This document shows, in pieces, positions 6,316 to 27,078 of a stretch of DNA of 64,000 bases. This stretch comes from Spirochaetales bacterium (GTDB lineage: Bacteria > Spirochaetota > Leptospiria > Leptospirales > Leptonemataceae). Positions within the stretch are counted from its first letter, which is position 1; every line of letters begins with the position of its first letter. Position numbers and translations under genes: made by a program. The notes beneath the pieces are model-generated. The model was not told where the DNA came from. It did no database searches and saw only the letters and a list, made by a program, of their open reading frames with translations. The DNA is taken from the NCBI GenBank assembly GCA_015075425.1, contig JABTUL010000001.1:1426001-1490000 (forward strand), in the 5' to 3' direction.

Positions 6316-6349
6316 TGCAAATTTAAAGTCTGATTTTAAATTTGCATAG
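5250..6349 (+). pseudogene. group II intron reverse transcriptase/maturase, central deletion
   Basis: The first frame (5250 to about 5727) encodes the RT N-terminus: SNRGAAGVDGI, RRVEIPKADGSKRLLGIPT, DRVIQQAL and SYGFRPGR. At about 5727-5730 it jumps, out of frame, to the segment encoding LDKELEKRGHKFCRYADDC, which continues to 6349. Roughly 100 residues are missing, including the part that normally carries the first catalytic Asp (the FFD/NHD region) and the TPQGG block. The YADD motif and maturase domain X remain. The C-terminus is also abnormal after AHVALGN. No HNH endonuclease domain is seen. The enzyme must be inactive. Confidence 0.9.
6316..6346 (+). promoter_or_regulatory. perfect 12-bp palindrome before ATPase gene
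   Basis: Arms TGCAAATTTAAA (6316-6327) and TTTAAATTTGCA (6335-6346) flank the centre GTCTGAT. The symmetry is perfect and the arms are AT-rich in a GC-rich setting. It sits directly before the DUF4143 ATPase gene and overlaps the first possible TTG codon of that ORF. An operator for autoregulation is the simplest reading; a recombination footprint is another. A second, slightly degenerate copy lies at 17584-17615. Confidence 0.55.
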
Positions 6350-6380
6350 ACCGGGTTTTACCATCGGCTACTCTGGTGCC

Positions 6381-7571: not shown

Positions 7572-7654
7572 AGGCAGAGAAAATCAAAGTAGGGTTGGCG
7601 TTTTTTTCTTTGGCCGCGCTTAAGCAGGTTGAAGCACGGCGGGCGGGCGCGGAA

Positions 7655-9896: not shown

Positions 9897-9920
9897 CCGT
9901 TCCTTTGAACTTTCACAGAG

Positions 9921-10055
9921 CATAGCATTGCCACTAGAAACTGCACCGTGCTATCCATGACCTGGATGCTGGCAGAGAGGGATGATCCGAACAGGATTGA
10001 AAGACTGGACGATGCGGTCCTGCATCATGTTGATTTCCTGCTCAGCTACGGTCAT
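9921..10055 (-). pseudogene. MNT-type nucleotidyltransferase remnant
   Basis: ATG 10055 has a strong GGAGGA upstream, yet the frame ends after 34 residues (stop TAG near 9953). The peptide contains QDRIVQSFNPVRIIPL, which matches the start of minimal nucleotidyltransferases, where VRIILFGSRA normally follows. Another frame then gives MDSTVQFLVAML, like the usual DSDIDLLVVM metal-binding strand. The GS and DxD core is destroyed. These proteins pair with HEPN toxins, so this may be a decayed MntA-like antitoxin. It occupies most of the gap between the kinase gene and the HEPN-like gene. Nothing else was recognised from 10056 to 10217. Confidence 0.45.
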
Positions 10056-10217
10056 ATACTATCCTCCATTCTCTCCAGGCTATTCAGACCGCCTCAGAAA
10101 GGATCCCTTCCAAATTTCCCTGAAACGTGTTGAACGCGTTCAGGGGCATCAAAAAAAATCCGTTCTGCGTTAGCAACCTCTGGTTCGGGATAAGGCCGAC
10201 TTTTGAGGCGCTATCCT

Positions 10218-10886
10218 CTAATCCAAAATTCTGAATGCAATTTTTCTTTTAACTATTTTCATTGTATAGCGGGCGATCAATTCTTGCGCCCCCTTTTTCA
10301 GGGCGATTTCTAAATCACCTCTTGAAGCGTAGGACTTTGCATTCTCTACTGCATCTTCGGCAATATCGGAAAATTTCAGCAAATTTACAAAGGTTGCGCT
10401 ATTTTGATCTGGACTGGCAAAAGTGCCATCCCATTGTTCATCAGGGTGAATAAACAAAGGGAGTTCTTCATCAGCGCCTAAGGTGAAACTTCTTAAAAGC
10501 TCCTTGTCGTTTGCGTTGCTTCCCTTTGGGATATTGACAAGGGAGTAATCGTGTATTATCGCGCACCTGAGCGCATACAAAACCTTGCATTCTGAGGAAT
10601 TCAAGTTCGAGAAATATCTGAGTGCATTAATGATTGATGGGCCTTTTTCGGGCTGCGCGCCTTTTGGCTTCACGGCAGTGCCAATCTGGTCAAGAACAGT
10701 GAAATATCCCATAGCCCCGAGCCAGCATCCAGCTTTTGCATCATCAATCAGGTTGCCTGTAATTAAATCCCGGCCAGTTGCAGCGCGTGCATCGCGCAAA
10801 ATAGCTATTAAGGTGGATATATGCGGAAATTTTCCATCAATGCCATCTTCTGACAAATACAATGAAATGGCCTCTTCTTCAGTCAT
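10218..10886 (-). CDS. HEPN-like protein in type I RM operon
   Basis: The 222-residue protein overlaps the end of hsdS by ATGA, so it belongs to the restriction operon. It contains LRCAIIHDYSL, an R-x4-H pattern like the active site of HEPN ribonucleases, within a helical context (SSECKVLYALRCAIIHDY). No other motif is recognised. It is AT-rich like hsdS. It could be an RNase-type effector or an accessory protein of the RM system. The nucleotidyltransferase remnant immediately downstream fits the MNT/HEPN pairing, though in the opposite order to some known pairs. The HEPN call is tentative. Confidence 0.6.
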   Translation of the reverse strand: MTEEEAISLYLSEDGIDGKFPHISTLIAILRDARAATGRDLITGNLIDDAKAGCWLGAMGYFTVLDQIGTAVKPKGAQPEKGPSIINALRYFSNLNSSECKVLYALRCAIIHDYSLVNIPKGSNANDKELLRSFTLGADEELPLFIHPDEQWDGTFASPDQNSATFVNLLKFSDIAEDAVENAKSYASRGDLEIALKKGAQELIARYTMKIVKRKIAFRILD

Positions 10887-12598
10887 CCAGCTAACTCCTC
10901 CACAACCGCATCCAGCATCTTTCGCCCTTCGTTCCGAGAGCTTGCAAGCCTTTCCTCCAGCTCATCGCAATATGCCATTAACCGTTCCACTTTTTCGGAA
11001 ATGCGCTCTTGCTCAGATAATGGAGCTATCGGAATTATTGCCGTATTCATTTTCGATAGAGTGACGCGCGGAATTCCCACGCCAGTCATATCTCCGCGTG
11101 TTTCGCTGTAGTAGAAGGGTGATCGCAGTACATGGAGCATGTATTTGTTATTTATTTCTTTTGGCAGCTTTAATAATGCTACGCTCGAAAGCATGCTAAA
11201 GGGTTCTTTCAGATGATTTATTGTTGCGATTCCAGTTGTTGCTCCGTCCTTGATATATAGAAGATCACCTTTTTCAGGATCGCAGCGCGAATAAATTTCA
11301 TCGTGAACTTTCTTTGTTACATATGTGATTCCATGTAGAAGGATTCCGCTTTCTTTTATATTTTTAGCAGTAACATATTTATAAGCGCCTGATTCGCTAT
11401 TTGGTGGCGAATGGTGGGTCCCGTCTGTAATTTTAGTACATGCTTCCCCCAGCCTCACCCACTCCCATCCTTTCGGCAACGCAAACGGTTTCTCATCTTC
11501 CCCAATCGGTGGCAGCTCCTTCTGTCTCTTGATCTTCCCCTCCTCTATCAGCTTCTCCTTCTCAGCCTTGATCCGCTTTAGCAGCTCACTGGCTGGCTCA
11601 TCGTTCGGGTCTTGCTTCACCAGCTTCCCCATCACCGCCAGTTGTAGTATCGTTTCGCGCAGAATCTTCACGTTCTCAGGCCGCCGCACCAGTAGATCAA
11701 AATTGGACTTCACTCGATTCAGATTGACCTGGAAGCTTTTCTGATCCTGCTCCTGGGTGAGCGCACCAAACGCCGCGCCATTCAAGGAAACCTGCACCGT
11801 ATCGCGCTCATTCTGCTGCGCTTCCAGCTCATCGCACAGGGCCATCAGTCGATCCACTTTTTCGATAATACGCTTTTGTTCTGCCAATGGCGGAAAAGGG
11901 AATGGTGCTAATTCAAATTTTTCATATTCAAGACTTTGCACAGTCATCCCAGTTTTAACTAACTTTTGTAAAATATATTGCTCAAAACCCTTCAGGACTA
12001 ATTTAATATATTCTGATATTCCTGATATAAACGGAATAATAACTTTCATATCTTGATTTACTGTGCAATCAACAAGATTGATCGCTACAGGAAGCTTTCT
12101 TTTAAGGATTCCGCTTCTAGCTACTATCAAAACTGAATTCTTTGGGATAAGTTTGACAGCAGAATTTTTTACTCCTTCCTCTGAAATTTTAAGTTCAGAA
12201 GTTGTAATATGTTCTTTGGCCATATCTTTTGGCGATACCCACAAAATTGGTCCGTCCCAAAAGCTGCTTTTGTTTTTGGAAGGCGTTCCTCCTCCTGCAA
12301 AAGTGCCAAGTTCGCATAAGCGTATCCATGCCCAGCGTTTAGGAGATTTAAAAAATTCATTATGTTCTGATATTTGAGGGAACGTTCTGCTCTTCTTGAT
12401 TTCGCCTTTGTTAATTAGCTTCTGCTTTTCTGAAAATAGTTTCTCAAGCAACTTGCTGGCTGGCTCATCGTTCGGGTCTTGCTCTACCAGCTTACCCATC
12501 ACAGCCAGTTGCAGAATTAGCGCGCGCATTTTTGAAATGGATTCTGGCGCATCCAGCACTAGATCGAATTCATCTTTCAGAATTTTTGTGATCTTCAT
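10883..12598 (-). CDS. hsdS: type I restriction specificity subunit HsdS
   Basis: About 571 residues with two target-recognition domains. The first contains KRWAWIRLCELGTFAGGG and the second PKGWEWVRLGEACTKITDG, and each is followed by a helical spacer ending in LAEQKRIIEKVDRLMALCDELE or SEQERISEKVERLMAYCDELE. The repeated LILQLAVMGKL / QDPNDEPAS segments mark the conserved central and proximal regions that bind HsdM. ATG 12598 has GAGGA at good spacing and begins MKITKILKDEFD; the open frame extends further upstream to 12664 without support. The subunit sets the bipartite DNA target. Target-recognition domains are lower in GC than the rest, as expected for exchangeable parts. Confidence 0.93.
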   Translation of the reverse strand: MKITKILKDEFDLVLDAPESISKMRALILQLAVMGKLVEQDPNDEPASKLLEKLFSEKQKLINKGEIKKSRTFPQISEHNEFFKSPKRWAWIRLCELGTFAGGGTPSKNKSSFWDGPILWVSPKDMAKEHITTSELKISEEGVKNSAVKLIPKNSVLIVARSGILKRKLPVAINLVDCTVNQDMKVIIPFISGISEYIKLVLKGFEQYILQKLVKTGMTVQSLEYEKFELAPFPFPPLAEQKRIIEKVDRLMALCDELEAQQNERDTVQVSLNGAAFGALTQEQDQKSFQVNLNRVKSNFDLLVRRPENVKILRETILQLAVMGKLVKQDPNDEPASELLKRIKAEKEKLIEEGKIKRQKELPPIGEDEKPFALPKGWEWVRLGEACTKITDGTHHSPPNSESGAYKYVTAKNIKESGILLHGITYVTKKVHDEIYSRCDPEKGDLLYIKDGATTGIATINHLKEPFSMLSSVALLKLPKEINNKYMLHVLRSPFYYSETRGDMTGVGIPRVTLSKMNTAIIPIAPLSEQERISEKVERLMAYCDELEERLASSRNEGRKMLDAVVEELAG

Positions 12599-12779
12599 TT
12601 TCCTCAAATTTCCGCTGCATTTCGCGCAATACTTCAACTCTGCCCTGCACAATTTTCCCACCAATCATATGCACGACCTCTTCGCCCAGTTTTTCATGGC
12701 GGTCCAGGGCATCGGCAACTGCTTTCTGTACGGCCTGAGTTATTATCTTGCTAAACGCCTTCATTTCGTCCTGAGTCAT
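12570..12779 (-). CDS. small helical protein between antitoxin and hsdS
   Basis: A 69-residue ORF from ATG 12779 (MTQDEMKAFSKIITQAV..) begins four bases after the antitoxin stop and overlaps the hsdS start by 29 bases. The product is charged and helical, with VADALDRHEKLGEEVVHMI and a C-terminal EVLREMQRKFEENEDHK. It has no recognised domain. Tight packing and a consistent amphipathic pattern favour a real gene over chance. It might be a DNA-binding or coiled-coil accessory to the toxin-antitoxin pair or to HsdS assembly. The function is unknown. Confidence 0.5.
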   Translation of the reverse strand: MTQDEMKAFSKIITQAVQKAVADALDRHEKLGEEVVHMIGGKIVQGRVEVLREMQRKFEENEDHKNSER

Positions 12780-12783
12780 ATTC

Positions 12784-13008
12784 TCAAGCAACGTAGCGCA
12801 TAATCTCAACTTCGGCCTGCCTTTGGGCTGCTGCTTGTACACTTTCTTGCACGCGGCTGGCCACAGTCTGGCTTAAATAGTATTCGCCGCAGTTTTCGCA
12901 AATTTCCGCCGGAACTTCTTTGATTACCACAATCGTGCTGGCCCGCTCCAGTGTTACAGTTGTGGTGCCTGAGCTGGTTTCTCCGTTCTTGCAGATAACG
13001 CACTTCAT
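12784..13008 (-). CDS. YgiT/MqsA-type zinc-finger antitoxin
   Basis: The 74-residue protein has two CxxC knuckles, CVICKNG at the start and CENCGEYYLSQTVASRV, separated by a beta-rich stretch. This is the N-terminal zinc domain of the YgiT/MqsA antitoxin family. Following family practice, it should bind and neutralise the DUF4258 toxin encoded just upstream, with a four-base overlap of the two genes. The helix-turn-helix half found in full-length MqsA is absent, which is normal for the short YgiT-type members. The pair lies inside the hsd operon, between hsdM and hsdS. Confidence 0.85.
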   Translation of the reverse strand: MKCVICKNGETSSGTTTVTLERASTIVVIKEVPAEICENCGEYYLSQTVASRVQESVQAAAQRQAEVEIMRYVA

Positions 13009-13289
13009 ACTTTTTTCCTTATTTTGAATTTGCTATCCCATTGTTCAGGGTCAGGATAATAGGCGGTGATTAATATGCATTCCATTGTTTCTGTCCTGGC
13101 CACAACCAGATGAAGCGGAGACTTTCCAGCAAAGCCAAGCAGCAAATAGCTGGGATGGGGCCTATCATCCAGATATTCTTCAATAACAGCGCTTGCCGCT
13201 ATGACCGCGGGCAGGGAGCCGATGTGGATGTCTCTGGAAACGATTCTTTCCATAGCATGCTTGCTGATATGCAGGGACCGGCATTCCAT
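13005..13289 (-). CDS. DUF4258 toxin-like protein
   Basis: The 94-residue protein opens LHISKHAMERIVSRDI and continues with LLGFAGKSPLHLVVAR, then ECILITAYYPDP near the end. These are the hallmarks of DUF4258 proteins, RelE-like predicted mRNA interferases found with YgiT-type antitoxins. The toxin gene comes first and the antitoxin second, as in mqsRA. It starts six bases after the hsdM stop. Location within an RM operon suggests a guard or addiction role, but that is inference. Confidence 0.8.
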   Translation of the reverse strand: MECRSLHISKHAMERIVSRDIHIGSLPAVIAASAVIEEYLDDRPHPSYLLLGFAGKSPLHLVVARTETMECILITAYYPDPEQWDSKFKIRKKV

Positions 13290-13295
13290 GAGTGG

Positions 13296-14735
13296 CTATC
13301 TTTCCAGGGCCTGCATCAGTTCGGTTTTTAATTCTCCACGCTTTTTTGCCACCTCTTCCAGCAGGGCTTTATAGCTTTTTAGCAATTCTTCCGGATCACC
13401 ATGACTTTCTTCCACGGCATTGGGATTCTTTATGTCCAGATTGTAATTGTTGGCCTTGATCCGATCGATCGGCACCTTCCAGGCGCGTTCGCTTTCTTTG
13501 CGCTTGTTCCACCATTTCTTTTCTGACTCGAATTCCTGAATGGTTATGGGTCGCGTTTTATTATAGGCTTTAGCTCCTTCGGGCAGGGGATGTTCATAGA
13601 ACCAGATTTCTTTGGTTGGCTCGCCTTTTTCAAAGAAGAGCAGATTCGTCTTTATGCTGGTATAGGGCGCGAACACCGAATTGGGCAGCCGGACGATCGT
13701 GTGCAAATTGCATTCTTCCAGCAGCTTTTCTTTGATTTTGGTCTTCACGCCCTCGCCAAACAGCGTCCCATCGGGCAAAACGATGGCAGCGCGCCCGCCT
13801 GATTTCAGAACATGCATGATCAAAACCAGAAAGAGATCGGCTGTTTCGCGTGTGCGCACCGCAGCCGGAAAGTTATTCTCAATGCCGTCTTCTTCCTGCC
13901 CACCAAAAGGCGGATTGGTCAAAATCACATCGACGCGATCTTTAGGGCCGTAGTCTTTGAGCGGTCTGGAAAGAGCATTGTCGCGCCGGATATTCGTGGG
14001 CACTTCCAGGCCGTGCAGGATCATATTGGTGATGGCCAGCAGGTGCGGCAGCGGCTTCTTGTCGATGCCCGTCAGCATCTCCTGAAGTTTTTCGCGATCC
14101 TTTGTGGTCTTGACATAGTTCGCGCGCACATGCTCGATCACCGAAGCCATAAAGCCGCCCGTGCCGCAGGCTGGATCGAGCACCTTTTCGCCCAGCTTTG
14201 GATCGATCATTTCCGTCATAAACTGCGTCACCGCGCGCGGCGTGTAGTATTCGCCCGCGTTCCCGGCGCTCTGCAAATCCTTGAGAATCTTTTCGTAGAT
14301 ATCGTTGAATAAATGCCGATCGTCTTTTTTATTAAAGTCAATCGCATTGATTTTGTTGGCCACCTGGCGCATCAGCGTGCCCGACTTCATGTAGTTGTAA
14401 GCGTCCTCAAAGACAGAGCGAATGATTCGGGTGCGCGGGTTTTTCTCAGAAACGGGAAGCTCCTTGAGCTTCGGGAACATATCGTTGTTCACAAAGTTCA
14501 AAAGTTCATCGCCGGTCATGCCTTCTTCGTTGGCCGCCCAGGCGCTCCAGCGATACTTTTGGGGCAGCGCCGATTTGTAGCTGTCGTCCATCAGTTCTTT
14601 TTCCAGCTCCAGATCGTCGTAAATCTTGAGGAAAAGCATCCAGACAAGCTGGCTGATGCGCTGTGCGTCGCCGTCCACGCCCACATCCTTGCGCATAATA
14701 TCCTGGATGGATTTTATAGTAGTGCTGACGCTCAT
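13296..14735 (-). CDS. hsdM: type I restriction DNA methyltransferase HsdM
   Basis: The 479-residue subunit has the HsdM N-terminal helical domain (SLVWMLF-type region at about 25-50, here SQLVWMLFLKIYDDLELE). The SAM-binding motif I LDPACGTGGF is at about 186-195, and the adenine-N6 methyltransferase motif IV NPPFGG at about 274-279. Motif X-like GEYYTPRAV precedes motif I. It modifies adenine in the HsdS-defined target and forms the M2S core of the complex. The gene follows hsdR by 12 bases and precedes the toxin gene by six, all on the minus strand. It looks intact. Confidence 0.96.
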   Translation of the reverse strand: MSVSTTIKSIQDIMRKDVGVDGDAQRISQLVWMLFLKIYDDLELEKELMDDSYKSALPQKYRWSAWAANEEGMTGDELLNFVNNDMFPKLKELPVSEKNPRTRIIRSVFEDAYNYMKSGTLMRQVANKINAIDFNKKDDRHLFNDIYEKILKDLQSAGNAGEYYTPRAVTQFMTEMIDPKLGEKVLDPACGTGGFMASVIEHVRANYVKTTKDREKLQEMLTGIDKKPLPHLLAITNMILHGLEVPTNIRRDNALSRPLKDYGPKDRVDVILTNPPFGGQEEDGIENNFPAAVRTRETADLFLVLIMHVLKSGGRAAIVLPDGTLFGEGVKTKIKEKLLEECNLHTIVRLPNSVFAPYTSIKTNLLFFEKGEPTKEIWFYEHPLPEGAKAYNKTRPITIQEFESEKKWWNKRKESERAWKVPIDRIKANNYNLDIKNPNAVEESHGDPEELLKSYKALLEEVAKKRGELKTELMQALER

Positions 14736-14747
14736 TTTTTCTCCGTA

Positions 14748-17147
14748 TCAGGCAGTTTCATAAATATGGCTCTCCAACTCGCGGAGCGCGTCCCGGTAAC
14801 CATCCTTGCCGCCAAAGCTCTGGATGATCTCCACCGGCGTTCCGATGTCACTCATGGGCTTGAGCTTCAGGACTTCCATTTTCTCCAGCTCAGTGATCCC
14901 GCGGTCAGCATACTTGTCCAGCAGAGCTTCCAGCACGATACGCGCTTTATCTGTGTATTTGCCGAAATAATTGCGCTTCTTTACATTCTGTGCCCGCTCG
15001 TGCCGCGTAAGAGGAGGCTGGCCATAGGCCACATGGCAAATTAGATCGAAGGCTTCATAATCGCGACCGACTTCATCCGCAAGCGCTTCAAAAAGCACGC
15101 CTTCTTCTTCCAGCTCTTCAATGACGGCCTGCTTCTTTTCCTCTGCGGTCCACTTTTTCAAGAACTCATTCAAGGTGCGATATTGTTTCTGGATTGCCTT
15201 GCGCGTGTAATCTTTGAGCGATTCAGTGATCAGTTTGCCATCCTTGTCATAGTACTGCACCCGTTCGCCCACTACCTGGACCAGCACATCTTTCACATAA
15301 AACTTGCGTCTTCTGGAAATATTTTTTCCGTCCGGCATATCCGGCGATTCCGGCCAGGGCTCAACGACGGTTACGCCATCTGCGCTGCCTTCGATTTCGT
15401 CTTCTGTTGGCTCTCCCTGATCCACATCTGGCGGCACTGGCGGCTCGCCGGGCCCGGGCTCATAGATTTGCACCGGATCTCCATCGAAGTTCGGATCGGC
15501 GAATAGCTCGGTCGCTTTCTTGAAGTCCATGATCGTGAACGATGTTTTGCCGTAGTCTTCTTCTACGCGCGTGCCGCGCCCGATGATCTGCTTGAATTCA
15601 GTCATGGAACTGATGGTCTGATCGAGGACAATCAGCTTGCAGGTTCTCACATCCACGCCCGTGGTCAGGAGCCTGGAAGTAGTGGCTATGACCGGATACT
15701 TTTCTTCCGGCATCTGAAAGTATTCGACCTGCTCTTTGCCTTCCGGGTTGTCCCCGGTAATCTGCATGATGTATTTCTGGTTTTCGCGGTAACGCTGCGG
15801 GTTCTCATTGATCAGAGCCTGGCGCATACGACCGGCGTGCTCAATATCTTCACAGAACACGATGGTTTTATCAAAGGGGTTTGTGCCTTCCAGAAATTCA
15901 GTGATGAGTCGCGCCACAAGTTCAGTGCGTTGGTCGAGCACCAACTGCCGATCAAAATCCTTCTGGTTGTAAATACGATCTTCGATCAGATTGCCGTGCT
16001 TGTCACGCTGTCCTTTGCTGGGTCGCCAGCCTTCAAGGTCTTTGTCCATATCGATGCGCACCACGCGATAGGGCGCCAGAAAACCGTCCTGAATTCCCTG
16101 GCGCAGCGAATAGCTATAGAGCGGCTCGCCAAAATAATCGATGTTGGAAACGTATTTTGTCTCTTTAGGAGTGGCCGTCAGTCCGATTTGCGTGGCCCCG
16201 GAAAAGTATTCCAGAATTTCCCTCCAGGCGCTATCGGCCGCCGCGCTGCCCCGGTGGCATTCATCAATCACGATCAGATCAAAGAAATCAGGCGTGAATT
16301 CTTTGAACGCTTTCTGGCTTTCTTCCGGGCCCGTGAGCTGCTGATACAGCGCCAGAAAGACTTCATACGATTTGTCGATTTTACGGCTGGTGATCTTCGC
16401 CATCACCGATCCAAACGGCTTGAAATCGCCGGTTTTCGCCTGGTCCACAAGGATGTTGCGATCCGCAAGGAAGAGGATGCGTTTCTTGATTCCCGCCTTC
16501 CACAATCTGTAAATGATCTGAAATGCCGTCTGGGTTTTGCCGCAGCCTGTAGCCATCACAAGCAAGATGCGATCCTGCCCTTTAGCAATCGCCTCTACAA
16601 CGCGATTGATGGCGATGCGCTGGTAGTAGCGCGGCTCTTTATTACCATCGATATAGTAGGCCTGAGATATGATTTCTTTTTGTGGATCTGTGAACCCCTT
16701 CCAGGTGCAATAGCGCTCCCAGAGGCTATCCGGCGAAGGGAACTCATCCAGAGCCAGTTCGCGCTCAATCTTGCCCTTGTCTCTGGTGCGATCGTGCTCA
16801 ATAAATCCATCGCCGTTGGAGCTGTACACAAAGGGAATATCCAGTAAATCGCCATACTCCAGAGCCTGCTGCATCCCGGCTCCAATGGGATGCTTGTTGT
16901 CTTTCGCTTCAATGATTGCCAGCGGAATATTGGGCTTCAAGTACAGAATATAATCCGCGCGCTTGCTTTTGCCCCGGCTGGTGAGCTTGCCCCGGATCAC
17001 AATGCGGCCTTTTGTGAAGGTCACTTCCTCCCGGATTTGCAGGTCAATATCCCAGCCAGCTTTGAGCACTGCAGGCGTGATGTATTTAGTGCAAATATCC
17101 TTTTCAGACAGGGCCTTCTTTTCGTCCGATGTGAGCATCCGGGGCAT
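14748..17147 (-). CDS. hsdR: type I restriction endonuclease subunit HsdR
   Basis: The product (about 799 residues from ATG 17147) has an N-terminal PD-(D/E)xK nuclease: ADYILYL followed by [11 protein letters not shown]. The SF2 translocase follows, with Walker [12 protein letters not shown], the DECHRGS motif [10 protein letters not shown], and a late [12 protein letters not shown] motif VI. The C-terminal domain should contact the MTase core. The frame is open to 17204, but [18 protein letters not shown] is the typical beginning, so I prefer 17147. It is the first gene of the island operon. All key motifs are present, so it is probably active. Confidence 0.94.
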
Positions 17148-17235
17148 ATATGGCAAAATGTGATGGGTCAGGCAAGTCTGTTTTAATAGCGTAAGGCTTG
17201 ACAAAAAAACTCAAGCAGGCTTAGATCAGGGATGT

Positions 17236-17853: not shown

Positions 17854-18717
17854 ATGCAAACAGCGGAAGAGATTAAGAAAATGGTGCGATCTACCTATGG
17901 CCAGATTGCGGAGCAATCCTATGCCACCAACGCCACAAGCTGCTGCGGAGCCGGCTCCTGCAGCACCGAATCCTTCATGCTGGCCGGCGAAGATTACGCA
18001 GCCATGCCGGGCTATGTAGCCGAGGCCGACCTGGGCCTGGGCTGTGGCATTCCCACGGCCTTTACGGCCCTGCAACCGGGCGAACGCGTGCTCGACCTGG
18101 GTTCGGGAGCCGGCAATGATGTCTTCATAGCCAGAAGAGGCGTTGGCCCCGGCGGGCAGGTGATAGGCGTGGACATGACGGCGGCCATGATTGAAAAGGC
18201 GCGGGCCAACAACCACAAACTGGGCTACCAGAATGTGGAATTTCGCCTGGGCGAAATTGACCATTTGCCCGTCGAAAGCGGCCAGGTGGACGTCATTGTC
18301 AGCAATTGTGTCCTGAACCTGGTGCCGGACAAGAAACGGGCCTTCACGGAGATGTTCCGGGTCCTTGCTCCCGGCGGACGCTTTGTGATATCAGACATCG
18401 TCCTGGAGGGACAGATTCCCTCCGGTCTGGAAAAAGCCGCGGAGATGTATGCTGGCTGTATTTCCGGAGCTGCGCAAAAGGCCGACTATCTGAACTATAT
18501 CGCTGATGCGGGCTTCCAGGATGTCTTGATTCTCAAGGAAAAGGATATTGTCCTGCCTCAGGAAATTCTGGAAACCTATTTGAATGACCAGGAACTAACC
18601 GCCTTTCGCACTTCCGGGGTGGGCATAAGGAGCGTTACCGTTTCTGCTCGCAAACCCGGCGGCGAAGCGTCAGAACAAAGCCCCGACAGCGCCTGCTGCG
18701 GCGGTGGTTGCTGCTAA
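17854..18717 (+). CDS. arsM: arsenite S-adenosylmethionine methyltransferase
   Basis: The 287-residue enzyme methylates As(III) in the cytoplasm, using SAM. Motif I is LDLGSGAGNDVF. The As-binding cysteines are present: the N-terminal CCGAGSC pair (residues 30-36), Cys152 in SNCVLN and Cys202 in AGCISGA. A C-terminal CCGGGCC tail, common in this family, adds further thiols. The N-terminus (VRSTYGQIAEQ) is typical. No other ars gene is intact nearby; the repressor remnant upstream suggests that expression is no longer controlled by ArsR from this locus. Confidence 0.95.
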   Translation: MQTAEEIKKMVRSTYGQIAEQSYATNATSCCGAGSCSTESFMLAGEDYAAMPGYVAEADLGLGCGIPTAFTALQPGERVLDLGSGAGNDVFIARRGVGPGGQVIGVDMTAAMIEKARANNHKLGYQNVEFRLGEIDHLPVESGQVDVIVSNCVLNLVPDKKRAFTEMFRVLAPGGRFVISDIVLEGQIPSGLEKAAEMYAGCISGAAQKADYLNYIADAGFQDVLILKEKDIVLPQEILETYLNDQELTAFRTSGVGIRSVTVSARKPGGEASEQSPDSACCGGGCC

Positions 18718-18773
18718 ATTTTGCGGATTCAAATCCCTGGGTTTGCCAGAAATACGTTGATACCAGGATCATT

Positions 18774-19901
18774 GTGAAACTGAGAATCTGCTATGAGCTA
18801 TTGGTGATTGCAGTCATTTTCGCGGTCATTGTAGCGTTCGCACAGCTGCCCCCGGACTCTTTTGCGACGTCACTGCGTCTGGCCCTGATAACTATAGTTA
18901 TAATAAAAATGATTTTATTCTATAGGTACTGGCTGAAGAAAGTCAAGGCTGGCGAATCGGCCCGCAACGCCGGCCTTGGTGTCCTCTCCTTGTTTATTGC
19001 AACGCTACTGCTTGAAGCTTTCTTTATGTTTCTCCCGCGCACGCATGGAATAGGTTATTCACTGGCGAACCGGCTATGGTTCAATCGCTACTGGAAACCC
19101 ATCAATTCTTTTGGCAACCGCGACGTAGAGCCCGATAAGGGAATCAAGACCAATGTTTTTTTTGTGGGAGATTCCTTCACGGCCGGGCATGGAATCAAAG
19201 ATGCAACGGACCGGTTTTCCGATATTGTCAAAGCCAATCTGGCCGGAAGGCAAGGCGCTATCCAGACCCTGAATCTGGCGCACAACAGCTTCGATACAAA
19301 ATCCGAATATGATTCCATGTTAAAATTCATGGAAGCGAGCGGCATCCAGCCGGACTTCATCGTACTGCAGTACTACGGAAATGATATTGACCCGGTAGCC
19401 AGAAAACACGGCCTGAAGGGCGATGGAGAAGGCTTCTCCCCCTATAGCGGGCATAACCCTCTTTCGCGAGGGATTGTCAATGGCTCATACCTCATAAATT
19501 TCCTGTACTGGTTGTTTCCGGGGCAGGACGTCGTCGGCTATGCGAACTATTTGGAAAAAGCGTATTCCACTGAATCCATCTTCAACGAGCATATGCAAGA
19601 AATCCTTGCATTCAAACGGTTCGCTGACGCAAAGGACATCTCTTTACTGGTTATTATTTTTCCGCTCATGACAGAAATAGAAATGAGCCAGAAATTGTAC
19701 ACACAAAAAGTCAGCCGTTTTCTGGCGAATCATGAAATAGACCACGTCGATCTTTCTTTTTTATTTCGGGACATGGAACTTTCCGAGCGCATCGTCAATG
19801 TCAACGACGCCCATCCTTCCCGAAAAGCGCATCGTCTGGTGGGAGAGGAACTTGGCAGGCTTATTTCCCTAAAATTACAAAATGACAGACCAGTCCAATA
19901 A
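18774..19901 (+). CDS. membrane-tethered SGNH/GDSL hydrolase-like protein
   Basis: About 375 residues from GTG 18774; the frame is open from TTG 18708, but that would overlap arsM, and GTG has AGGAT upstream. Three hydrophobic segments occupy the first 110 residues. The catalytic domain then shows block I GDSFTAG, an FIVLQYYGNDID segment resembling block III (GxND), and DAHPSRKAH with the catalytic Asp-His. SGNH proteins of this shape act as esterases or acyltransferases on surface glycans. It begins a set of envelope genes and probably works on a polymer made nearby. Confidence 0.75.
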   Translation: MKLRICYELLVIAVIFAVIVAFAQLPPDSFATSLRLALITIVIIKMILFYRYWLKKVKAGESARNAGLGVLSLFIATLLLEAFFMFLPRTHGIGYSLANRLWFNRYWKPINSFGNRDVEPDKGIKTNVFFVGDSFTAGHGIKDATDRFSDIVKANLAGRQGAIQTLNLAHNSFDTKSEYDSMLKFMEASGIQPDFIVLQYYGNDIDPVARKHGLKGDGEGFSPYSGHNPLSRGIVNGSYLINFLYWLFPGQDVVGYANYLEKAYSTESIFNEHMQEILAFKRFADAKDISLLVIIFPLMTEIEMSQKLYTQKVSRFLANHEIDHVDLSFLFRDMELSERIVNVNDAHPSRKAHRLVGEELGRLISLKLQNDRPVQ

Positions 19902-19944
19902 TTAAATAAGGTCCTGGCCCCGCCAAACAGCGACTTATTTGCAG

Positions 19945-21543
19945 ATGCGCGCAATTTTTGGAGAAAAGAATGGTTATGCGGGGAAGGGCAGTTTGCCATC
20001 AGGGCTTCTGTACTTCCCCGCGGTGCTGTTTATCTATTCCATGTTTGCCGGCGGAACGACCTATGGCAGAAGCCCCAACGAGCAGAGTCGGCTGGAGCTG
20101 ACCATCGCGCTGGCCCGATACGGATCGGTGGCACTGGACGACGTTTTAGAAACTTACGGTGTTCCATTTGATCGTGCCATCCGCGATGGCCAGACTTATT
20201 CAGACAAAGCGCCAGGGCTTTCGCTCCTGGGCGTGCCAATTGCATGGCTTTCCGATCCCTTTCTGCCCAGAGAAAAAGGAAGCGATCTCCCGGCGTACTG
20301 GGGCCTGCGGCACCTTCTCGTCTGGCTCCTCATAGCTTTGCCGGCAGCAGCCTTCCCCTTTCTGGCTCTGAGGTCCGTGACCGGGCCGACCGGCAACTCC
20401 CATAGCCAGGTAGCGCTTGTCTTCGCCCTGGCCACGCCGATGGTCACCTATTCAGGAGTTTTGTTCGGCCATGTGCCGGCAGGCGTTCTGGCTGCCCTGG
20501 CATGGATGCTCTTACTAAAGCCCGGCCAGCAGGATGAAGTGCCTTCCTGGCGTGCGGCGCTGCTGGCCGGTCTGCTGATTTCAGCGGCCGTCACGATCGA
20601 ATACCCGACGGCGATCGTTGGCCCGGTAATGTTTGCGACAATGGCGCTGCGCCGCTTCCCGCCCGGCGTCCTTGTGGCTTTCGCCGGGGCCGCAGGCATT
20701 GGATTGCTACCGCTTCTTGCCTACCATCAGCTGGCATTCGGGTCTCCCTTCACGACAGGGTACGCTTTTAAGAGCGATTGGTTTCATGGGACGCTTCACC
20801 GGAGTGGCCTCTTTGGCGTTACGATTCCTCGCCTTGAGCACCTCCGGGGAATTCTGGCCGGTACAAGCCGTGGCGTTTTGTTTTACAGCCCGATTCTCGC
20901 GCTCATTCCCCTGGGCTTTTTCCAGCAGGAGCGCCAAAAAAAATACAGTTCACTTCCCTATATAGCGCTGGGCGCATTGTATCTGCTTTTTGCATCGGGC
21001 TTTTCCGATTGGCAGGCCGGCTGGAGCGCGGCGGCGCGGCATCTGGTTCCTTGTATCATGATTTTTATTTTTCCTTTCGCGGCCGCGGTGGAATGTATCA
21101 TGCGCGACGGACAAAAGTATTTCTATTTACGCTGGTTGTTGCCCTGCGCGGTTGCTCTGTCCCTTACGGGTTCTTTGCTCAGCTTGAGTTTGACGCCTTT
21201 TTTTCCCGAGCATTTTTCTTCTCCACTGGGTCAACTGGTCCTCCCTTCCCTGGCCCAGGGTTTTTTTGCTCCTACGCTTATTTCCGGATCCCATCTCGCC
21301 TGGCGAGGCTATGCAATGGGACTCTTGACTCTGATCAGCTTTGCCGTGATGTCCCATGCATTGTTTTCCCAATTGCCCGCCTCAAAAATGAAAAGGTTCG
21401 GTCCCGTGGCTTTGTTCGCGATCGCGCTTGCGTATGCCGGGCTCATCTGGCATAGCGCACCACCCCTGGCAGGAGAGCAATGGCAAATGCGCCACGATGT
21501 CCTCAGGCACATCGGATATTTTGCAGAGGCGCAAACGCCATGA
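19945..21543 (+). CDS. multi-TM envelope protein
   Basis: About 532 residues with roughly ten hydrophobic segments. The N-terminal loop carries TTYGRSPNEQSRLEL and SDKAPGLSLLGVPI, a pattern seen in family 39-like glycosyltransferases and related lipid-sugar enzymes, where an acidic loop residue binds metal. I cannot assign a donor or acceptor. The last codon overlaps the start of the GT2-GH16 gene by ATGA, so the two should be made together in the membrane. ATG 19945 is the first plausible start; TTG 19939 is possible. Confidence 0.65.
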   Translation: MRAIFGEKNGYAGKGSLPSGLLYFPAVLFIYSMFAGGTTYGRSPNEQSRLELTIALARYGSVALDDVLETYGVPFDRAIRDGQTYSDKAPGLSLLGVPIAWLSDPFLPREKGSDLPAYWGLRHLLVWLLIALPAAAFPFLALRSVTGPTGNSHSQVALVFALATPMVTYSGVLFGHVPAGVLAALAWMLLLKPGQQDEVPSWRAALLAGLLISAAVTIEYPTAIVGPVMFATMALRRFPPGVLVAFAGAAGIGLLPLLAYHQLAFGSPFTTGYAFKSDWFHGTLHRSGLFGVTIPRLEHLRGILAGTSRGVLFYSPILALIPLGFFQQERQKKYSSLPYIALGALYLLFASGFSDWQAGWSAAARHLVPCIMIFIFPFAAAVECIMRDGQKYFYLRWLLPCAVALSLTGSLLSLSLTPFFPEHFSSPLGQLVLPSLAQGFFAPTLISGSHLAWRGYAMGLLTLISFAVMSHALFSQLPASKMKRFGPVALFAIALAYAGLIWHSAPPLAGEQWQMRHDVLRHIGYFAEAQTP

Positions 21544-24119
21544 GCCTGATGCTCTGGATTTGCACGATTTTGATCATCGGTCTTACCGCGTACTCTCTGG
21601 TGCACTACTTTTGCGTGCTCGTGTTTCTTCGAGGCCTTCCGGCGGCCCGCAAATTTGAGGGATCGACGCAAAATTCCGTGGCGATCCTCATCCCCGCGCG
21701 CAACGAAGGCGAGGGTGCCATGCGAGCCATCCGTTCCGCACTGGATCAAGATCACGGCGGGCCGATTGAAATCTACCTGCTTGTGAAAGATCATGCAGAT
21801 TCTTCCATGCAATTTCTTAAAAAGGCTTTCCCGGAAGCCCACCTTACTGATGCGCCGGCGTACATAGTTGAACTGTATAACAAAGACAATCGCAAAGTGT
21901 TTGTTGCTTTTACAGGCGACGACTCGAAAAGCGCAAAGCTCAACTGGATGGCGGAGCGGCTGAACAGCGATTTCCTTGCCATCCTGGACAGCGATCACCA
22001 GGCCCATTCTGCCTGGATCCGGTCTTCCTTAATCTTGATGAACGAGAAAAAGGCTCGCATTATCCAGGGATGGCGGGGGCCCCTTTCCGCGCCCGGCTTC
22101 TTTCAGCTATGGGATTCGCTCCACCAGCACATTGGCTGCGAAATGTTCAACACCGCATTTGCCAGGCTCAATCTCACGCTTTTCATTACCGGAACAACAG
22201 TCGTCATGCAAACCGGGCTTTTGCAGAAGAATAAACTGAGTGAATGCGTGACGGAAGATGTGGAATTCAGCTACCGGATCCTTTTGCAGGGAGAAAAGAT
22301 TATCTACAATCCTTATTATGGTTCCGACGAAGAAGTGTCGCCCGATATGTACAGCTTTATTGCGCGCCGGCGTCGTTGGGCCAACGGACATACCGGCGCA
22401 TTCTTTGACCACCTGCGCGGAATCTACTCGGCGCCGCTCAAATTACGGGATCGCATTCAATTTGTATTCCATGGCCTGCACTATCTGGTCGCGCTGTTTG
22501 TTTTTGCGCTGCATCTGGATATTGGACTCATCCTCATGCAAAAGATGTCACCTATTTCGCAGCTGACCGCCCTTCTTTCAAGTTTCATACTCAGCGCCAT
22601 GATCACAAAAACGCAGCGCTCTCCGGGGTTTGGCGCTCGATTTTCAGAAATTGCAATTGTTTTCGCCTGGATTTTCCCGGCAATTTTGATCCTGCTCAGT
22701 CTGGCGCTTGCGTATCTGGCCAGTGACATCACGCAGGCGGCGTTGCCCATCCCAGGCTACCTGCAGGTATTGGGGCTTATTGGCCTGTGCGCGCCGCTGG
22801 TGGTTTTGCTTGCTGGCCTGGCTGGTTTTCGACAGCTCAACCTGGGTACATTGCTCTGGGTTCTTCTAACCTACCCAATTGCGTTTTATCTTGATGTCGC
22901 AGCCGTTCTGATCGGTCTTGTTGATTACATTACGAGTAGAAAATACTGGCATGCTGTGGCACGATCACCGCAGAAGCCAGACCGGGGCAATCAAACTGGC
23001 GAAATACCGGACGTCCCGGCAGCCGGTATTAAAGCCAGTCTGGGATTTTCATCCATCATCAAAGCTTCGCGTATGACATTGTATCGCTTTTTTGCTTTTT
23101 TCCTGAAACCTTCGCGGGCTGCCGCCCTGCTGGCCTTATCCGGCCTGCTCTTCATTGGAATCATGTATACGCCATCTTTGATGATACCGGTGGCCGCAGC
23201 GCCCTGCGAAGCGCTAAAACATGATACGGACCCCTGGATCGTGCCGGCCAAAAAAATCCCGGGTTACTGCGAATCTTCCCCGGCCAGGCAAAAGGCAGGC
23301 TGGTCAAAGCGCACGGGCAGCTACCATCCGGTGCGGCAGGATGATCTGCGCCAGATTGATCCGGCGTTCTGGGAAAAACTCGACTCAACTTTTTTCTGCA
23401 ATCAAGCGGCTTTTACGCCCGACAATGTCGTCCTGCAGCGCCAGGGCGGCGTAGGATTTCAGTTGCGCAGGGAACAAAAAGGCGACAAAGCCTTCACCTC
23501 CGGCTCGATTGCGACTAAAGATAGCCCCGAAGCTCATTTTCTCTACGGTCGCTTTGAAACGGTCATGAAGCCGATCAAAGTGTCCGGCGTGGTGAGTGCG
23601 CTTTTTCTCTATCGCTTTGATCCCTGGCAGGAAATCGACATGGAGTTTGTGGGGCGCGATACTACGCGAATTTTACTGAACGTTTACTACAATCCAGGCA
23701 ACCCGGGCGATCTTTACAACTATGGATACCGGGGAACGCCAGTGCTGGTGGATCTGGGCTTTGACGCGGCGGACGATTTTCATCGCTATGCCATTGAATG
23801 GGATCCGGAAGAAATACGCTGGTTTGTGGATGACCGCTTGATTCACAGAAGAAGGGCTGGCTATCCCACGCCCATCCCGCATTTACCGATGCGTTTTTTT
23901 CTGAATACCTGGCCAACCTGCAGCGAAGAACTGGCCGGACCTTTTCTCCCCACAGGGGAGAACCTGCAGGCGGATTTTAAGTCCGTTGCGATTTACAAAT
24001 GGAAAGCTGCCCCACTGCCCTGGTTATCTTCTTTTGTCGATGGTCTGTTTTCGAGTTCGGAGCCGGGCGAGAACTGGCGCAAAAAGGCTGAGTGGATCCA
24101 ACCGGGTCCATCGCCTTAA
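21540..24119 (+). CDS. GT2 synthase fused to GH16 glycosidase
   Basis: One 859-residue chain joins two enzymes. The N-terminal half is a processive family 2 glycosyltransferase: VAILIPARNEGEG, the DSD motif in AILDSDHQAHS, the TED motif in CVTEDVEF, and RRRRWANG in the place of the QxxRW motif. Several membrane helices follow (about 300-460), then one more at about 540-560. The C-terminal domain (about 590-840) is GH16, with catalytic EIDME (Glu698, Asp700, Glu702) and WFVDDRLIHR. The GT works at the cytoplasmic face, while the GH16 part should lie outside. The design suggests synthesis and trimming or transglycosylation of a beta-glucan-type polymer. The actual sugar is unknown. Confidence 0.85.
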   Translation: MSLMLWICTILIIGLTAYSLVHYFCVLVFLRGLPAARKFEGSTQNSVAILIPARNEGEGAMRAIRSALDQDHGGPIEIYLLVKDHADSSMQFLKKAFPEAHLTDAPAYIVELYNKDNRKVFVAFTGDDSKSAKLNWMAERLNSDFLAILDSDHQAHSAWIRSSLILMNEKKARIIQGWRGPLSAPGFFQLWDSLHQHIGCEMFNTAFARLNLTLFITGTTVVMQTGLLQKNKLSECVTEDVEFSYRILLQGEKIIYNPYYGSDEEVSPDMYSFIARRRRWANGHTGAFFDHLRGIYSAPLKLRDRIQFVFHGLHYLVALFVFALHLDIGLILMQKMSPISQLTALLSSFILSAMITKTQRSPGFGARFSEIAIVFAWIFPAILILLSLALAYLASDITQAALPIPGYLQVLGLIGLCAPLVVLLAGLAGFRQLNLGTLLWVLLTYPIAFYLDVAAVLIGLVDYITSRKYWHAVARSPQKPDRGNQTGEIPDVPAAGIKASLGFSSIIKASRMTLYRFFAFFLKPSRAAALLALSGLLFIGIMYTPSLMIPVAAAPCEALKHDTDPWIVPAKKIPGYCESSPARQKAGWSKRTGSYHPVRQDDLRQIDPAFWEKLDSTFFCNQAAFTPDNVVLQRQGGVGFQLRREQKGDKAFTSGSIATKDSPEAHFLYGRFETVMKPIKVSGVVSALFLYRFDPWQEIDMEFVGRDTTRILLNVYYNPGNPGDLYNYGYRGTPVLVDLGFDAADDFHRYAIEWDPEEIRWFVDDRLIHRRRAGYPTPIPHLPMRFFLNTWPTCSEELAGPFLPTGENLQADFKSVAIYKWKAAPLPWLSSFVDGLFSSSEPGENWRKKAEWIQPGPSP

Positions 24120-25705
24120 AAAGTGTGCCCGGGAACCGATTCGATGATCCACAGTTCCAGATGCAGGTCTTGAAAGAGCAGGCGAGTGCGGACATTTTTA
24201 GCCTTCTCCAGGCTGCGCCGAAATTCGTCGACGGGGCTGTAAAGGAAGTAAGTGAAGTTTCCAGGAAGCCTGTACTCCGCTTCCGTCATGGCCGGGGTTA
24301 AAAATTGCATTCTGGTCCCGGGTTTGAGCAAGTAGCTCAACGCCAGCAGGTTGCCCGGATGATGTCGCTCGCGATTGCCGATCACCAGGGGAGCCGGGGC
24401 CTGATTGATAAACTGCGCCACTTTCGGGAGGTTGTAGCTGATGCCTTTGGTCCAGACTATTTCCTGTGCCGAATTATGAAAACAGCTGGCGATGCGCAAA
24501 ACCAGAGCGAGAGTCAGGATTACAGAACCCGACCACTTCCTGCCCATGCTTGCATAAAAAAACGCCAGAGCCAGCTCCAGTCCGATCAACGACGGCGCGA
24601 TGTACCGGGCCGAAACCGAACGGATGCCCCCCCATAGCAGGTCAGGCCCGAGGAGCATCATGATGGGTACCAGAATAAGCGCAAGGGCAAGTCCTGCCGC
24701 TTTCAAGCGCGAGCGAATGAGCAAAAAACCGATGGCTGAGACTGCGGTCAGCGTGGCCAGGCCAATCCCTGCCGCCGTTAGCAGGCCACCGTGATTGCGG
24801 TCCGGCCAGAAATCTATGGAGGGTCGACTGATGTTCAGGGCGTTGATTTCCAGCAAGCTTCGTGTGGGAATGGAAATCACTTTAGACCAGGCCATGGAAA
24901 TCGCAAAGGCCTCCCAACGCATCAAAAGGGCGATAGCCCAGGGCAAGAATAATAGAACGACAATGGCAAATGCGCCGGCGCTTATCAGGCTGATGCGGGT
25001 AATTCTAAACTTTTCTCGAAACATTATGTAAATGGCCTGCGCAATCATGATCGATGCACTTGCAAGCGAAGTATAAAGCGCTAGAATTGAAAGTGCAGCG
25101 AACAGGGCCCAGGCAGCCAGGCATCGAGAATCCAGGCGTGTGCCTTCGCTCAATCGAATCGCTCGGAGCAGGGAAGCATTGGAGAAAAGAATCAAGACGA
25201 AGTAGAGCGCATACTCGCGCCCTTCCTGAGCATATAGAACGAAAAACGGAGAAACAGCGATGAGCGCGACTGCAGTCCAGGAAGTCCCGTGCCCACCGAA
25301 CAATTCCCGGCCCAGCCAATACATTGCGGGAAGGGCGAGCAGGCTGAGTAGAGCGGAAAGCAACCTGAGCGTTGCAATGGAATCGCCAAAGGCATGCGTC
25401 CAGATTCCGGCAAGGATATAGTAGAGCGGCGGATGCTGCGGATCATCGAGCATCAATCCCTTTATGACCTCAAGCGGCCCCCTAATATTGCGCCGATGTA
25501 TCGCCTGGACAACTGCAACGTCAAGAACAGCTCCTGTATACAACACGCTCTGCCACTCATCTATGGGGAGGCCTGCGGAAAACAATCGGGTTCCAACTTC
25601 ATCGTGCCAGATGAGCTTTTTATCAAGCTCCTCAAAGCGAAAGTAAAGACCCAGGCAGAGGGATACAGCTATCAGGCATTTATGGAAAAATGGAAGACTT
25701 AACAC
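24116..25705 (-). CDS. family 39-like multi-TM glycosyltransferase
   Basis: The 529-residue protein has ten or more hydrophobic segments. Its first loop has KLIWHDEVGTR (acidic motif after the first helix) and then DDPQHPPLYYILAG, both hallmarks of PMT/ArnT-type transferases that use a polyprenyl-phosphate sugar. A soluble C-terminal part follows. It converges on the GT2-GH16 gene, and the two tails share four bases. It would add a sugar to an acceptor on the outer face of the inner membrane. The acceptor is unknown. Confidence 0.75.
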   Translation of the reverse strand: MLSLPFFHKCLIAVSLCLGLYFRFEELDKKLIWHDEVGTRLFSAGLPIDEWQSVLYTGAVLDVAVVQAIHRRNIRGPLEVIKGLMLDDPQHPPLYYILAGIWTHAFGDSIATLRLLSALLSLLALPAMYWLGRELFGGHGTSWTAVALIAVSPFFVLYAQEGREYALYFVLILFSNASLLRAIRLSEGTRLDSRCLAAWALFAALSILALYTSLASASIMIAQAIYIMFREKFRITRISLISAGAFAIVVLLFLPWAIALLMRWEAFAISMAWSKVISIPTRSLLEINALNISRPSIDFWPDRNHGGLLTAAGIGLATLTAVSAIGFLLIRSRLKAAGLALALILVPIMMLLGPDLLWGGIRSVSARYIAPSLIGLELALAFFYASMGRKWSGSVILTLALVLRIASCFHNSAQEIVWTKGISYNLPKVAQFINQAPAPLVIGNRERHHPGNLLALSYLLKPGTRMQFLTPAMTEAEYRLPGNFTYFLYSPVDEFRRSLEKAKNVRTRLLFQDLHLELWIIESVPGHTF

Positions 25706-25851
25706 CAGTTAGACCACCCCTGGAGTCGGAGGAATCAGGGGATTGGCCGTACTGTAAACAGCTTTTCTTCAAGCTAAACCGGGGCGTTTTTTGTCGCGCC
25801 TCTTTTTTCAAGGCTTTCCACCGTAGGGGGAGTCTTTTTTAAGGTAATTTC

Positions 25852-27078
25852 ATGAGCGTAGATTTTATGCGCGCAATGGATAAGTGGCTGGGGGTCCCTG
25901 GTTGCTTGCTGATTTCTTTGCTGGAATTCTTTTTGCGGCCATTTTTGCCTGTACGCTCGCGTCCCGTAAAAAAAATTCTCTTTTTGCAGATATCAGAAAT
26001 GGGCTCAAGCATTTCGGCTTACAGCTCTATTGTAAAGGCCAGAGAACTTTTTCCGAACGTGGAAATCTATTATTTTATTTTCCGGGAAATGCAGGATAGC
26101 GTGCACTTGCTCGGAGCCGTCAAACCTCAAAATGTATTCACAGTCAGCTCTAAATCTTTCCTGAGTTTTAGCGCGGGACTTCTAAGGATGATCTGGAGCA
26201 TGCGCAGGCAAAATTTCGACGCGATTCTGGATCTTGAGCTATTTTCGCGTTTAAGCAGCATCCTTTGCTTTCTGTTTGGCGCGCCATCGCGCGCAGGGTT
26301 CAATCGCTTTCATATGGAAGGACTTTATCGGGGCAGCACGCAGACGCATAAAGTCGTATACAACCATACGCAACACATCAGTCAGAATTTTCTCTCGCTG
26401 GTTTACGCCTTACAAGAGGACCCTGCCGGCTCGCCTCTCGCCAAAAGGACCATTTCACCAGAGGATATTCGGGAGCTAAAGATTCGCTCCAGCAAAGCGG
26501 AAAAAAAATCCATACGGGACCGGATTCGCGCTGAGTGCCCCGCCATCTCAGCGAAAACAAAAATCATATTGTTTAATCCGAACGCCAGCGATCTACTGCC
26601 GCTGCGCCGCTGGCCGCTGGAGAATTATATTCAGACAGCAATTCGCCTGCTACAGCATCCTGATTTCAGCGTTGTCATTACAGGAGTTCAATCCGAATTC
26701 GATCGGGCGGCCCAAATTTGCCAGGCAGTGCAGAACAGGCGTTGCCTGAATTTTGCCGGTAAGACAACGCTGCGCGAGCTGATCGATCTTTACAATGCTT
26801 CTGATCTGCTTTTGAGCAATGATTCCGGACCGCCGAATTTTGCTTCTTTAACAGATATCCACACTCTGGTTTTCTTTGGTCCGGAAACCCCTCTTTGCTA
26901 CAAGCCTACCGGAAAAAATATTGAAGCGCTTTACGCGAATTATCACTGTAGCCCCTGCGTTTCAGCATACAATCATCGCAAATCAGCCTGCACCGATAAC
27001 AAATGCCTGCAGGCGATTACGGTTGATGAGGTTTACAGGCAAATCCTGTCCAGAATGTTGCCAGTGCCCCATCCATGA
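25852..27078 (+). CDS. glycosyltransferase family 9 (heptosyltransferase-like)
   Basis: The 408-residue protein has the GT9 layout. The N-terminal fold begins KKILFLQISEMGSS, with a membrane-associating hydrophobic stretch before it. The C-terminal donor site has IILFNPNASD, RRWPLENY, DLLLSNDSGPPNFA and VFFGPETP. GT9 enzymes transfer heptose or similar sugars in LPS core synthesis. A late Cys-rich patch (HCSPCVSAY and CTDNKCLQ) is typical of GT9 proteins. The 146 bases upstream are AT-rich and probably hold the promoter; no clear -35/-10 pair was identified. Confidence 0.88.
   Translation: MSVDFMRAMDKWLGVPGCLLISLLEFFLRPFLPVRSRPVKKILFLQISEMGSSISAYSSIVKARELFPNVEIYYFIFREMQDSVHLLGAVKPQNVFTVSSKSFLSFSAGLLRMIWSMRRQNFDAILDLELFSRLSSILCFLFGAPSRAGFNRFHMEGLYRGSTQTHKVVYNHTQHISQNFLSLVYALQEDPAGSPLAKRTISPEDIRELKIRSSKAEKKSIRDRIRAECPAISAKTKIILFNPNASDLLPLRRWPLENYIQTAIRLLQHPDFSVVITGVQSEFDRAAQICQAVQNRRCLNFAGKTTLRELIDLYNASDLLLSNDSGPPNFASLTDIHTLVFFGPETPLCYKPTGKNIEALYANYHCSPCVSAYNHRKSACTDNKCLQAITVDEVYRQILSRMLPVPHP

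Follow-up and report, generated by a model that had tools for sequence, protein, structure and literature searches.

A 64,000 nt window of a Spirochaetales bacterium genome (assembly GCA_015075425.1, contig JABTUL010000001.1, positions 1,426,001–1,490,000 of the forward strand; the window is this whole stretch, and coordinates given without a locus label refer to it) encodes a protein in which a family 2 glycosyltransferase (GT2) domain, membrane helices and a GH16 glycosidase domain are fused in one chain. Both sets of catalytic residues are present and conserved in this GT2-GH16 fusion, and its gene is accompanied almost obligately by a second gene, encoding a GT39-like transferase of the GT-C type. 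This partnership is the strongest new result of the analysis and is better supported than any claim about the product. We give a probability of about 60% to a membrane polysaccharide synthase that carries its own extracytoplasmic processing enzyme, together with a GT-C partner that would act on the same polymer.

The fusion is encoded by a single open reading frame (ORF) at 21540–24119 (+ strand), as had been proposed, along with both domains, in an earlier reading of the window made from the letters alone (the sequence-only reading). It stays open over 859 codons with no internal stop, and its ATG at 21540 overlaps the stop (21543) of the upstream gene by 4 bp. From its N terminus, the resulting 859 aa protein has a single membrane helix, a GT2 domain of the cellulose-synthase-like type, a helix bundle, a last helix and the GH16 domain. 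Pfam GT2 models match residues 47–283 (PF13641, E 1.9e-14; PF13632, E 5.1e-13; both above cut-off) and the GH16 model PF00722 matches residues 629–795 (E 1.4e-27; 96.7 bits against a cut-off of 22). The fusion occurs once in its source genome and holds the only GH16 domain identified there by genome search.

Homologs were collected in one scan of GTDB genomes, which returned 27 fusion loci with 43–63% identity to the window protein. The whole protein is in one frame at 16 of the 27, and several others are truncated only by contig ends. Because these loci come from unrelated assemblies and mostly cross the GT2/GH16 junction in one frame, as the window locus itself does, the merging of two genes by a frameshift or assembly error, which the sequence-only reading had named as a possible refutation, is rejected for the window locus and has a negligible probability. 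Three loci (L050, L051, L055) read as two ORFs. The point in favor of such an artefact is the near-identical Alcaligenaceae copies L050 (4644–7294) and L051 (1557–4206), which are split into a GT2 ORF (520 aa) and a membrane helix-GH16 ORF by a break in the linker near residue 520. They come from close Alcaligenaceae relatives, of which one metagenome-assembled genome (MAG) is labelled Bordetella parapertussis, a label that looks doubtful, and the differing frames would fit a recent fission and a frameshift error equally.

The partner gene (24116–25705, − strand; PMT_2, E 5e-8) converges on the fusion with a 4-bp tail-to-tail overlap. A convergent GT39-like gene adjoins the fusion in 22 of the 26 loci with downstream sequence, and 20 of 23 pairs, including that of the window, lie no more than 85 bp apart, with a 4-bp overlap in three. 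At L031 (where the contig ends), L039 and L040 the gene is not adjacent, but it is found elsewhere in the genome; a search of the genomes of L048 and L055, both incomplete MAGs, did not find it. Of 61 relatives, four have the fusion, and the gene is confined to these same four genomes (p 2e-6). In 379 Myxococcota genomes there are 14 with a strong GT39-like match (E ≤1e-57), 14 with the fusion and 13 with both (Fisher p 4.5e-22, uncorrected for genome kinship). Residues H34-D35-E36 of the partner are invariant, and GT-C enzymes of the GT39-like type usually keep such residues; no solved structure related to it by sequence was found. Clustering of all neighbors in the 27 fusion loci gave no larger conserved operon, the GT39-like gene alone being widely recurrent, while other common neighbors were confined to close Alcaligenaceae relatives, locus pairs or a single locus, L030. 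The SGNH, GT39-like and GT9 genes that the sequence-only reading placed together beside the fusion are therefore all present but not of equal weight, since only the downstream GT39-like gene is a conserved partner.

Conservation was counted over 22 aligned fusions, with invariance scored on the rows covering a position; all features of the fusion given here lie on the + strand. The GT2 catalytic domain (residues ~47–300, 21678–22439; predicted to be cytoplasmic, and recognized by Pfam, the BcsA profile and AlphaFold2 (AF2)) retains the motifs of processive GT2 enzymes. These are D84, the DxD motif D150-S-D152 (21987–21995, both Asp invariant in all covering rows), the TED motif (residues 238–240, 22251–22259, likewise invariant) and R276-R-R-R279-W280 (22365–22379, invariant in 22/22 rows), an RxxRW motif at the Q/RxxRW position of processive enzymes. 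A profile search of the PDB with the GT2 part (residues 31–316) matched BcsA (E 7e-9), and the AF2 model of residues 1–480 (pLDDT 91.7, pTM 0.89) had hyaluronan, cellulose and chitin synthases as its best Foldseek matches, at TM-scores of only ~0.5 (TMq). The protein resembles BcsA and hyaluronan synthase in its DxD, TED and (Q/R)xxRW motifs and membrane-embedded fold. It departs from them in its RxxRW form and its single N-terminal helix, and of the PilZ domain and BcsB partner of a Bcs system neither was found, the first in Pfam and profile scans and the second among the neighbors of the fusion loci.

The membrane part begins with an N-terminal helix (residues 3–30, 21546–21629), predicted to run out-to-in from hydropathy over the 22 homologs and from AF2. 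The GT2 domain is followed by a bundle (residues 317–464, 22488–22931) in which AF2 and hydropathy show five hydrophobic helices, a K/R-rich linker (residues 465–523, 22932–23108), predicted to be cytoplasmic from the family charge average, and a last helix (residues ~524–545, 23109–23174), predicted to run in-to-out from hydropathy and AF2. Family averages of K+R are high for loops 286–310, 357–369 and 461–527 and low for 331–338 and 393–408; residues 461–527 hold 9.8 K+R against 4.8 D+E. Four cysteines (556, 577, 620 and 794) are found in 22/22 GH16 halves, with almost never a further Cys there, and this set is confined to the GH16 half and missing as a set from relatives that lack membrane helices (the GT25-GH16 proteins below). 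The loop charges and the invariant cysteines place the GH16 domain in the periplasm and the GT2 domain in the cytoplasm, a strong prediction from sequence. This agrees with the arrangement suggested by the sequence-only reading and goes against a layout with both domains on the same side, which would have overturned it.

The GH16 domain with its N-terminal extension spans residues 551–822 (23190–24005; Pfam, Foldseek and the cysteine count). Its catalytic motif is EIDME (residues 698–702, 23631–23645), already noticed in the sequence-only reading, with E698 as nucleophile, D700, and E702 as acid/base; E, D and E are invariant in 22/22 fusions. The PF00722 match and this ExDx(x)E active site make it a GH16 member, and Bacillus licheninases match it best in both sequence and fold (Foldseek TMt 0.84–0.87). 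In the alignment, licheninase residues E105, D107, E109, F92, Y94, W103, N182 and W184 correspond to E698, D700, E702, F689, Y691, W696, N789 and W791. As the GT2 motifs and the GH16 E-D-E are invariant, both halves are considered to be under selection for catalysis.

Licheninases form subfamily GH16_21, whose enzymes cut beta-1,4 bonds that adjoin beta-1,3 bonds in mixed-linkage glucan. Its members have an EXDXE motif without beta-bulge, a strict Trp at the +1 subsite (residue 192), short loops and ~210 residues (PMC6827312). The fusion shares EXDXE and, in the invariant F689 aligned with F92, the Phe platform of the −1 subsite, and its overall fold and equivalents of W103, N182 and W184 are those of Bacillus BglS and its relatives (PDB 1gbg, 3o5s; TMt 0.87). 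It differs in having an invariant L798 in place of Trp192, a 270-residue module, an invariant extra loop of ~10 residues after N714-Y717 (N718-P-G..GD..NYG..GTP734), an N-terminal extension with two Cys, and the membrane fusion. In a tree of 41 GH16 domains, the stand-alone enzymes are separated with support 89/85 from a group made up of the domains fused to GT2 and to GT25; the GT25-fused domains form one clade (100/100), whereas the tree, with its long deep branches, did not resolve whether the GT2-fused domains are monophyletic. Since the +1 Trp and short-loop hallmarks both fail, the fusion GH16 is placed by sequence as a separate lineage near GH16_21 but outside it, otherwise seen fused to GT25 proteins. 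Laminarin, which had been suggested as an assay substrate, would probably be a poor one, because the domain lies on the EXDXE side of the family, with licheninases, XTH and CRH, and glucan with beta-1,3 linkages alone is not cleaved by licheninases (PMC6827312).

The licheninase likeness also bears on what the domain does. Its best matches are hydrolases, and the GH16 part could serve purely for editing, hydrolysing stalled chains in the periplasm as BcsZ (GH8) or AlgL do, with neither transfer nor cyclisation. Synthase systems often include a periplasmic hydrolase, and such a role would not conflict with what the favored reading says of the synthase. It is nevertheless regarded as a somewhat unlikely account of the domain, as the acceptor side is altered (+1 Trp to L798, and the invariant extra loop N718–P734) and strict fusion suggests an obligate GH16 step rather than clean-up. 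The changed acceptor-side residues leave transglycosylation possible and prove nothing.

In the favored reading, the cytoplasmic GT2 domain would use a nucleotide sugar to polymerise a glucan-like chain with beta linkages, and the chain would pass the membrane through the helix bundle of the synthase itself. The GH16 domain, tethered at the exit by the last helix, would cleave the chain by a retaining mechanism, leading either to release of defined lengths or to transfer of chain ends (transglycosylation), and the periplasmic GT39-like enzyme would add side sugars to the same polymer, most likely from a polyprenyl-phosphate donor. With moderate confidence the polymer is predicted from sequence to be a beta-1,4-containing glucan; its decoration by the GT-C enzyme is a weaker suggestion, and the choice between trimming and transglycosylation is left undecided.

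Several observations weigh against this reading. If all five helices after the GT2 domain spanned the membrane, the GH16 domain would be cytoplasmic; with GH16 outside, helix 435–464 cannot cross and must be re-entrant or interfacial. All full-length homologs in the genome scan come from MAGs, and the surroundings of the 27 fusion loci show no recurrent gene for an outer-membrane porin, a BcsB-like or PilZ protein or a flippase. The global fold scores of the GT2 and membrane part are only ~0.5, and PcManGT, which we take to be a non-processive enzyme, is among its fold matches (TMt 0.69), for which reasons processivity of the GT2 domain is considered likely and no firmer.

The PcManGT match fits the main rival explanation, in which the GT2 domain is non-processive and makes a polyprenyl-phosphate-sugar or short lipid-linked glycan as donor for the GT39-like enzyme (compare ArnC/ArnT and GtrB/Gtr), the GH16 domain editing or transferring the glycan outside. 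A near-obligate GT-C partner would suit such a pair of donor-maker and donor-user, and the RxxRW form and weak Glyco_transf_21 matches (7/22 members) recall ceramide glucosyltransferase. We nevertheless think this unlikely. The sequence matches in the PDB are only cellulose synthases and a chondroitin synthase, not PcManGT; polyprenyl-phosphate-sugar synthases, as far as we are aware, lack TED and Q/RxxRW; and the substrates of GH16 enzymes are polymers or long oligosaccharides.

The polysaccharide synthase favored here has its closest precedent, by analogy, in the GH17-GT2 protein of Pseudomonas ('Orphan'/NdvB), which is proposed to be a cyclic beta-1,3-glucan synthase working by synthesis inside and a glycosidase outside (PMC10237404). 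As there described, it too is a single chain that unites a cytoplasmic BcsA-like GT2 and a helix bundle with a glycosidase domain in the periplasm, a layout that the loop charges and cysteines predict for the fusion. The order is reversed and the glycosidase is another, an N-terminal GH17 TIM barrel in Orphan/NdvB against a C-terminal GH16 jelly roll here; the Pseudomonas motif is Q(Q/R)xRW rather than RxxRW, and the available part of the description mentions no GT-C partner. The GH17-GT2 protein embodies the same idea as the fusion, and the new result here is the GT39-like partnership. A literature search that did not extend to CAZy, where the fusion may be listed, or to subscription papers turned up no description of a GT2-GH16 fusion, which seems to be undescribed so far. 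Cgs (GT84-GH94) is alike in being one membrane protein that joins a synthase with a domain for processing or for setting chain length, but its processing domains are in the cytoplasm (PMC10901819), as are all its soluble domains, and its GT and GH families, GT84 and GH94, are not those of the fusion.

The membrane layout shared with Orphan/NdvB, a glycosidase at the exit, is what speaks for a cyclic glucan synthase in which the GH16 domain closes the chain into rings. We regard this as very improbable: no sequence feature indicates intramolecular transfer, a GT-C decorator would not be needed, and we know of no GH16 cyclase. From the sequence-only reading, the union of synthase and glycosidase in one chain and polymer remodelling as its likely purpose are therefore retained, and cyclisation, for which no specific evidence was found, is not.

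The fusion is patchily distributed. MAG labels of the 27 loci are Leptospiraceae, Spirochaetia, Myxococcota, Deltaproteobacteria, Alcaligenaceae and other Proteobacteria, and the architecture is common to loci from three phyla (Leptospirota, Myxococcota and beta/gamma-Proteobacteria), scattered among unrelated bacteria. Within the window's order, 4 of 30 genomes have it, as do 14 of the 379 sampled Myxococcota genomes. The latter count leaves out G427, in which a 754-aa frame (C44:19840-20592) matches the GH16 half only (41%) and is perhaps a chromosomal GT25-GH16 protein. A copy from the window's own family (G011) has 46–51% identity to the window protein, no closer than several Myxococcota copies (52–57%), which suggests movement between phyla by transfer. 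Viral contigs gave no relatives of the fusion, and a viral origin is rejected; plasmids gave no complete fusion, and one 22% match to the GT2 half.

Synthesis of a polymer on one face of the membrane and its processing on the other are usually the work of separate proteins, and the control of length or attachment is often unclear. The fusion with one near-obligate partner and no other conserved neighbor is a small, testable system, in which two genes should be enough for the polymer to be made and processed. Transglycosylases of practical use may also be found in a GH16 lineage so closely linked to glycosyltransferases. A bolder proposal, which we consider rather unlikely, is that a horizontally spread two-gene pathway of GT2-GH16 and GT-C decorator makes a new bacterial surface glycan, the GH16 domain acting as a tethered transglycosylase, equivalent in bacteria to XTH/CRH, by which emerging chains would be joined or anchored, within a GH16 subfamily devoted to partnership with glycosyltransferases.

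The closest relatives of the fusion GH16 (~37–49% identity) are those of plasmid GT25-GH16 proteins, which likewise have the extra loop and, in place of the +1 Trp, a Leu. They differ in that GT25 and a weak sulfotransferase-like match replace GT2, no membrane helix is seen and the Cys set is absent; the lack of a signal peptide is unusual for a GH16 domain. Such proteins were identified at L021:5748-8780, L022:5796-8822, L024:3972-8681, L025:4150-8789 and L059:896-4625, and partially at L023, on plasmids of Aliarcobacter, Klebsiella, Citrobacter (IncC), Sphingobium and Rhizobium, and also on R. wittichii pSWIT02. Of the five plasmids named first, three are conjugative by typing. A carbamoyltransferase and a GT32-like transferase are often encoded alongside, and genes for integrase, IS21, Shedu, DUF262 or Abi lie close by. 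An anti-phage role of these clusters was considered and gave no PADLOC match.

In the window the fusion lies among further genes that are local rather than general. Upstream are a membrane-anchored SGNH/GDSL hydrolase or acyltransferase candidate (18708–19901, + strand; Pfam Lipase_GDSL) and a multi-pass protein (19939–21543, + strand), a weak GT39-like candidate with a weak LA_3751-type GT match (NCBIfam below cut-off, no Pfam match), both conserved only in L030. Beyond the GT39-like gene is a GT9 glycosyltransferase (25852–27078, + strand; PF01075, E 1.4e-22), also found in L030 (72%) and L032 (39%). These three proteins may add acyl groups or further sugars. L030 belongs to a Leptospiraceae MAG, of another family than the window, and the five genes of window positions 18708–27078 (SGNH, multi-pass, GT2-GH16, GT39-like, GT9) recur in its region 5643–14132 with unchanged order and orientation, at 58–72% identity. 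The set is absent from most relatives and is likely a transferred cassette. Its genes have 47–57% GC against a window mean of 52%, which gives no verdict on foreign base composition; a scan for promoters was at chance level and for terminators slightly above, and these results were not used. Directly upstream of the cassette, at 17854–18717, is a methyltransferase with a Cys-rich start and a CCGGGCC end that resembles arsenite methyltransferases, and a type I restriction R subunit HsdR (ResIII and EcoEI_R_C) is encoded at 14748–17204 (− strand).

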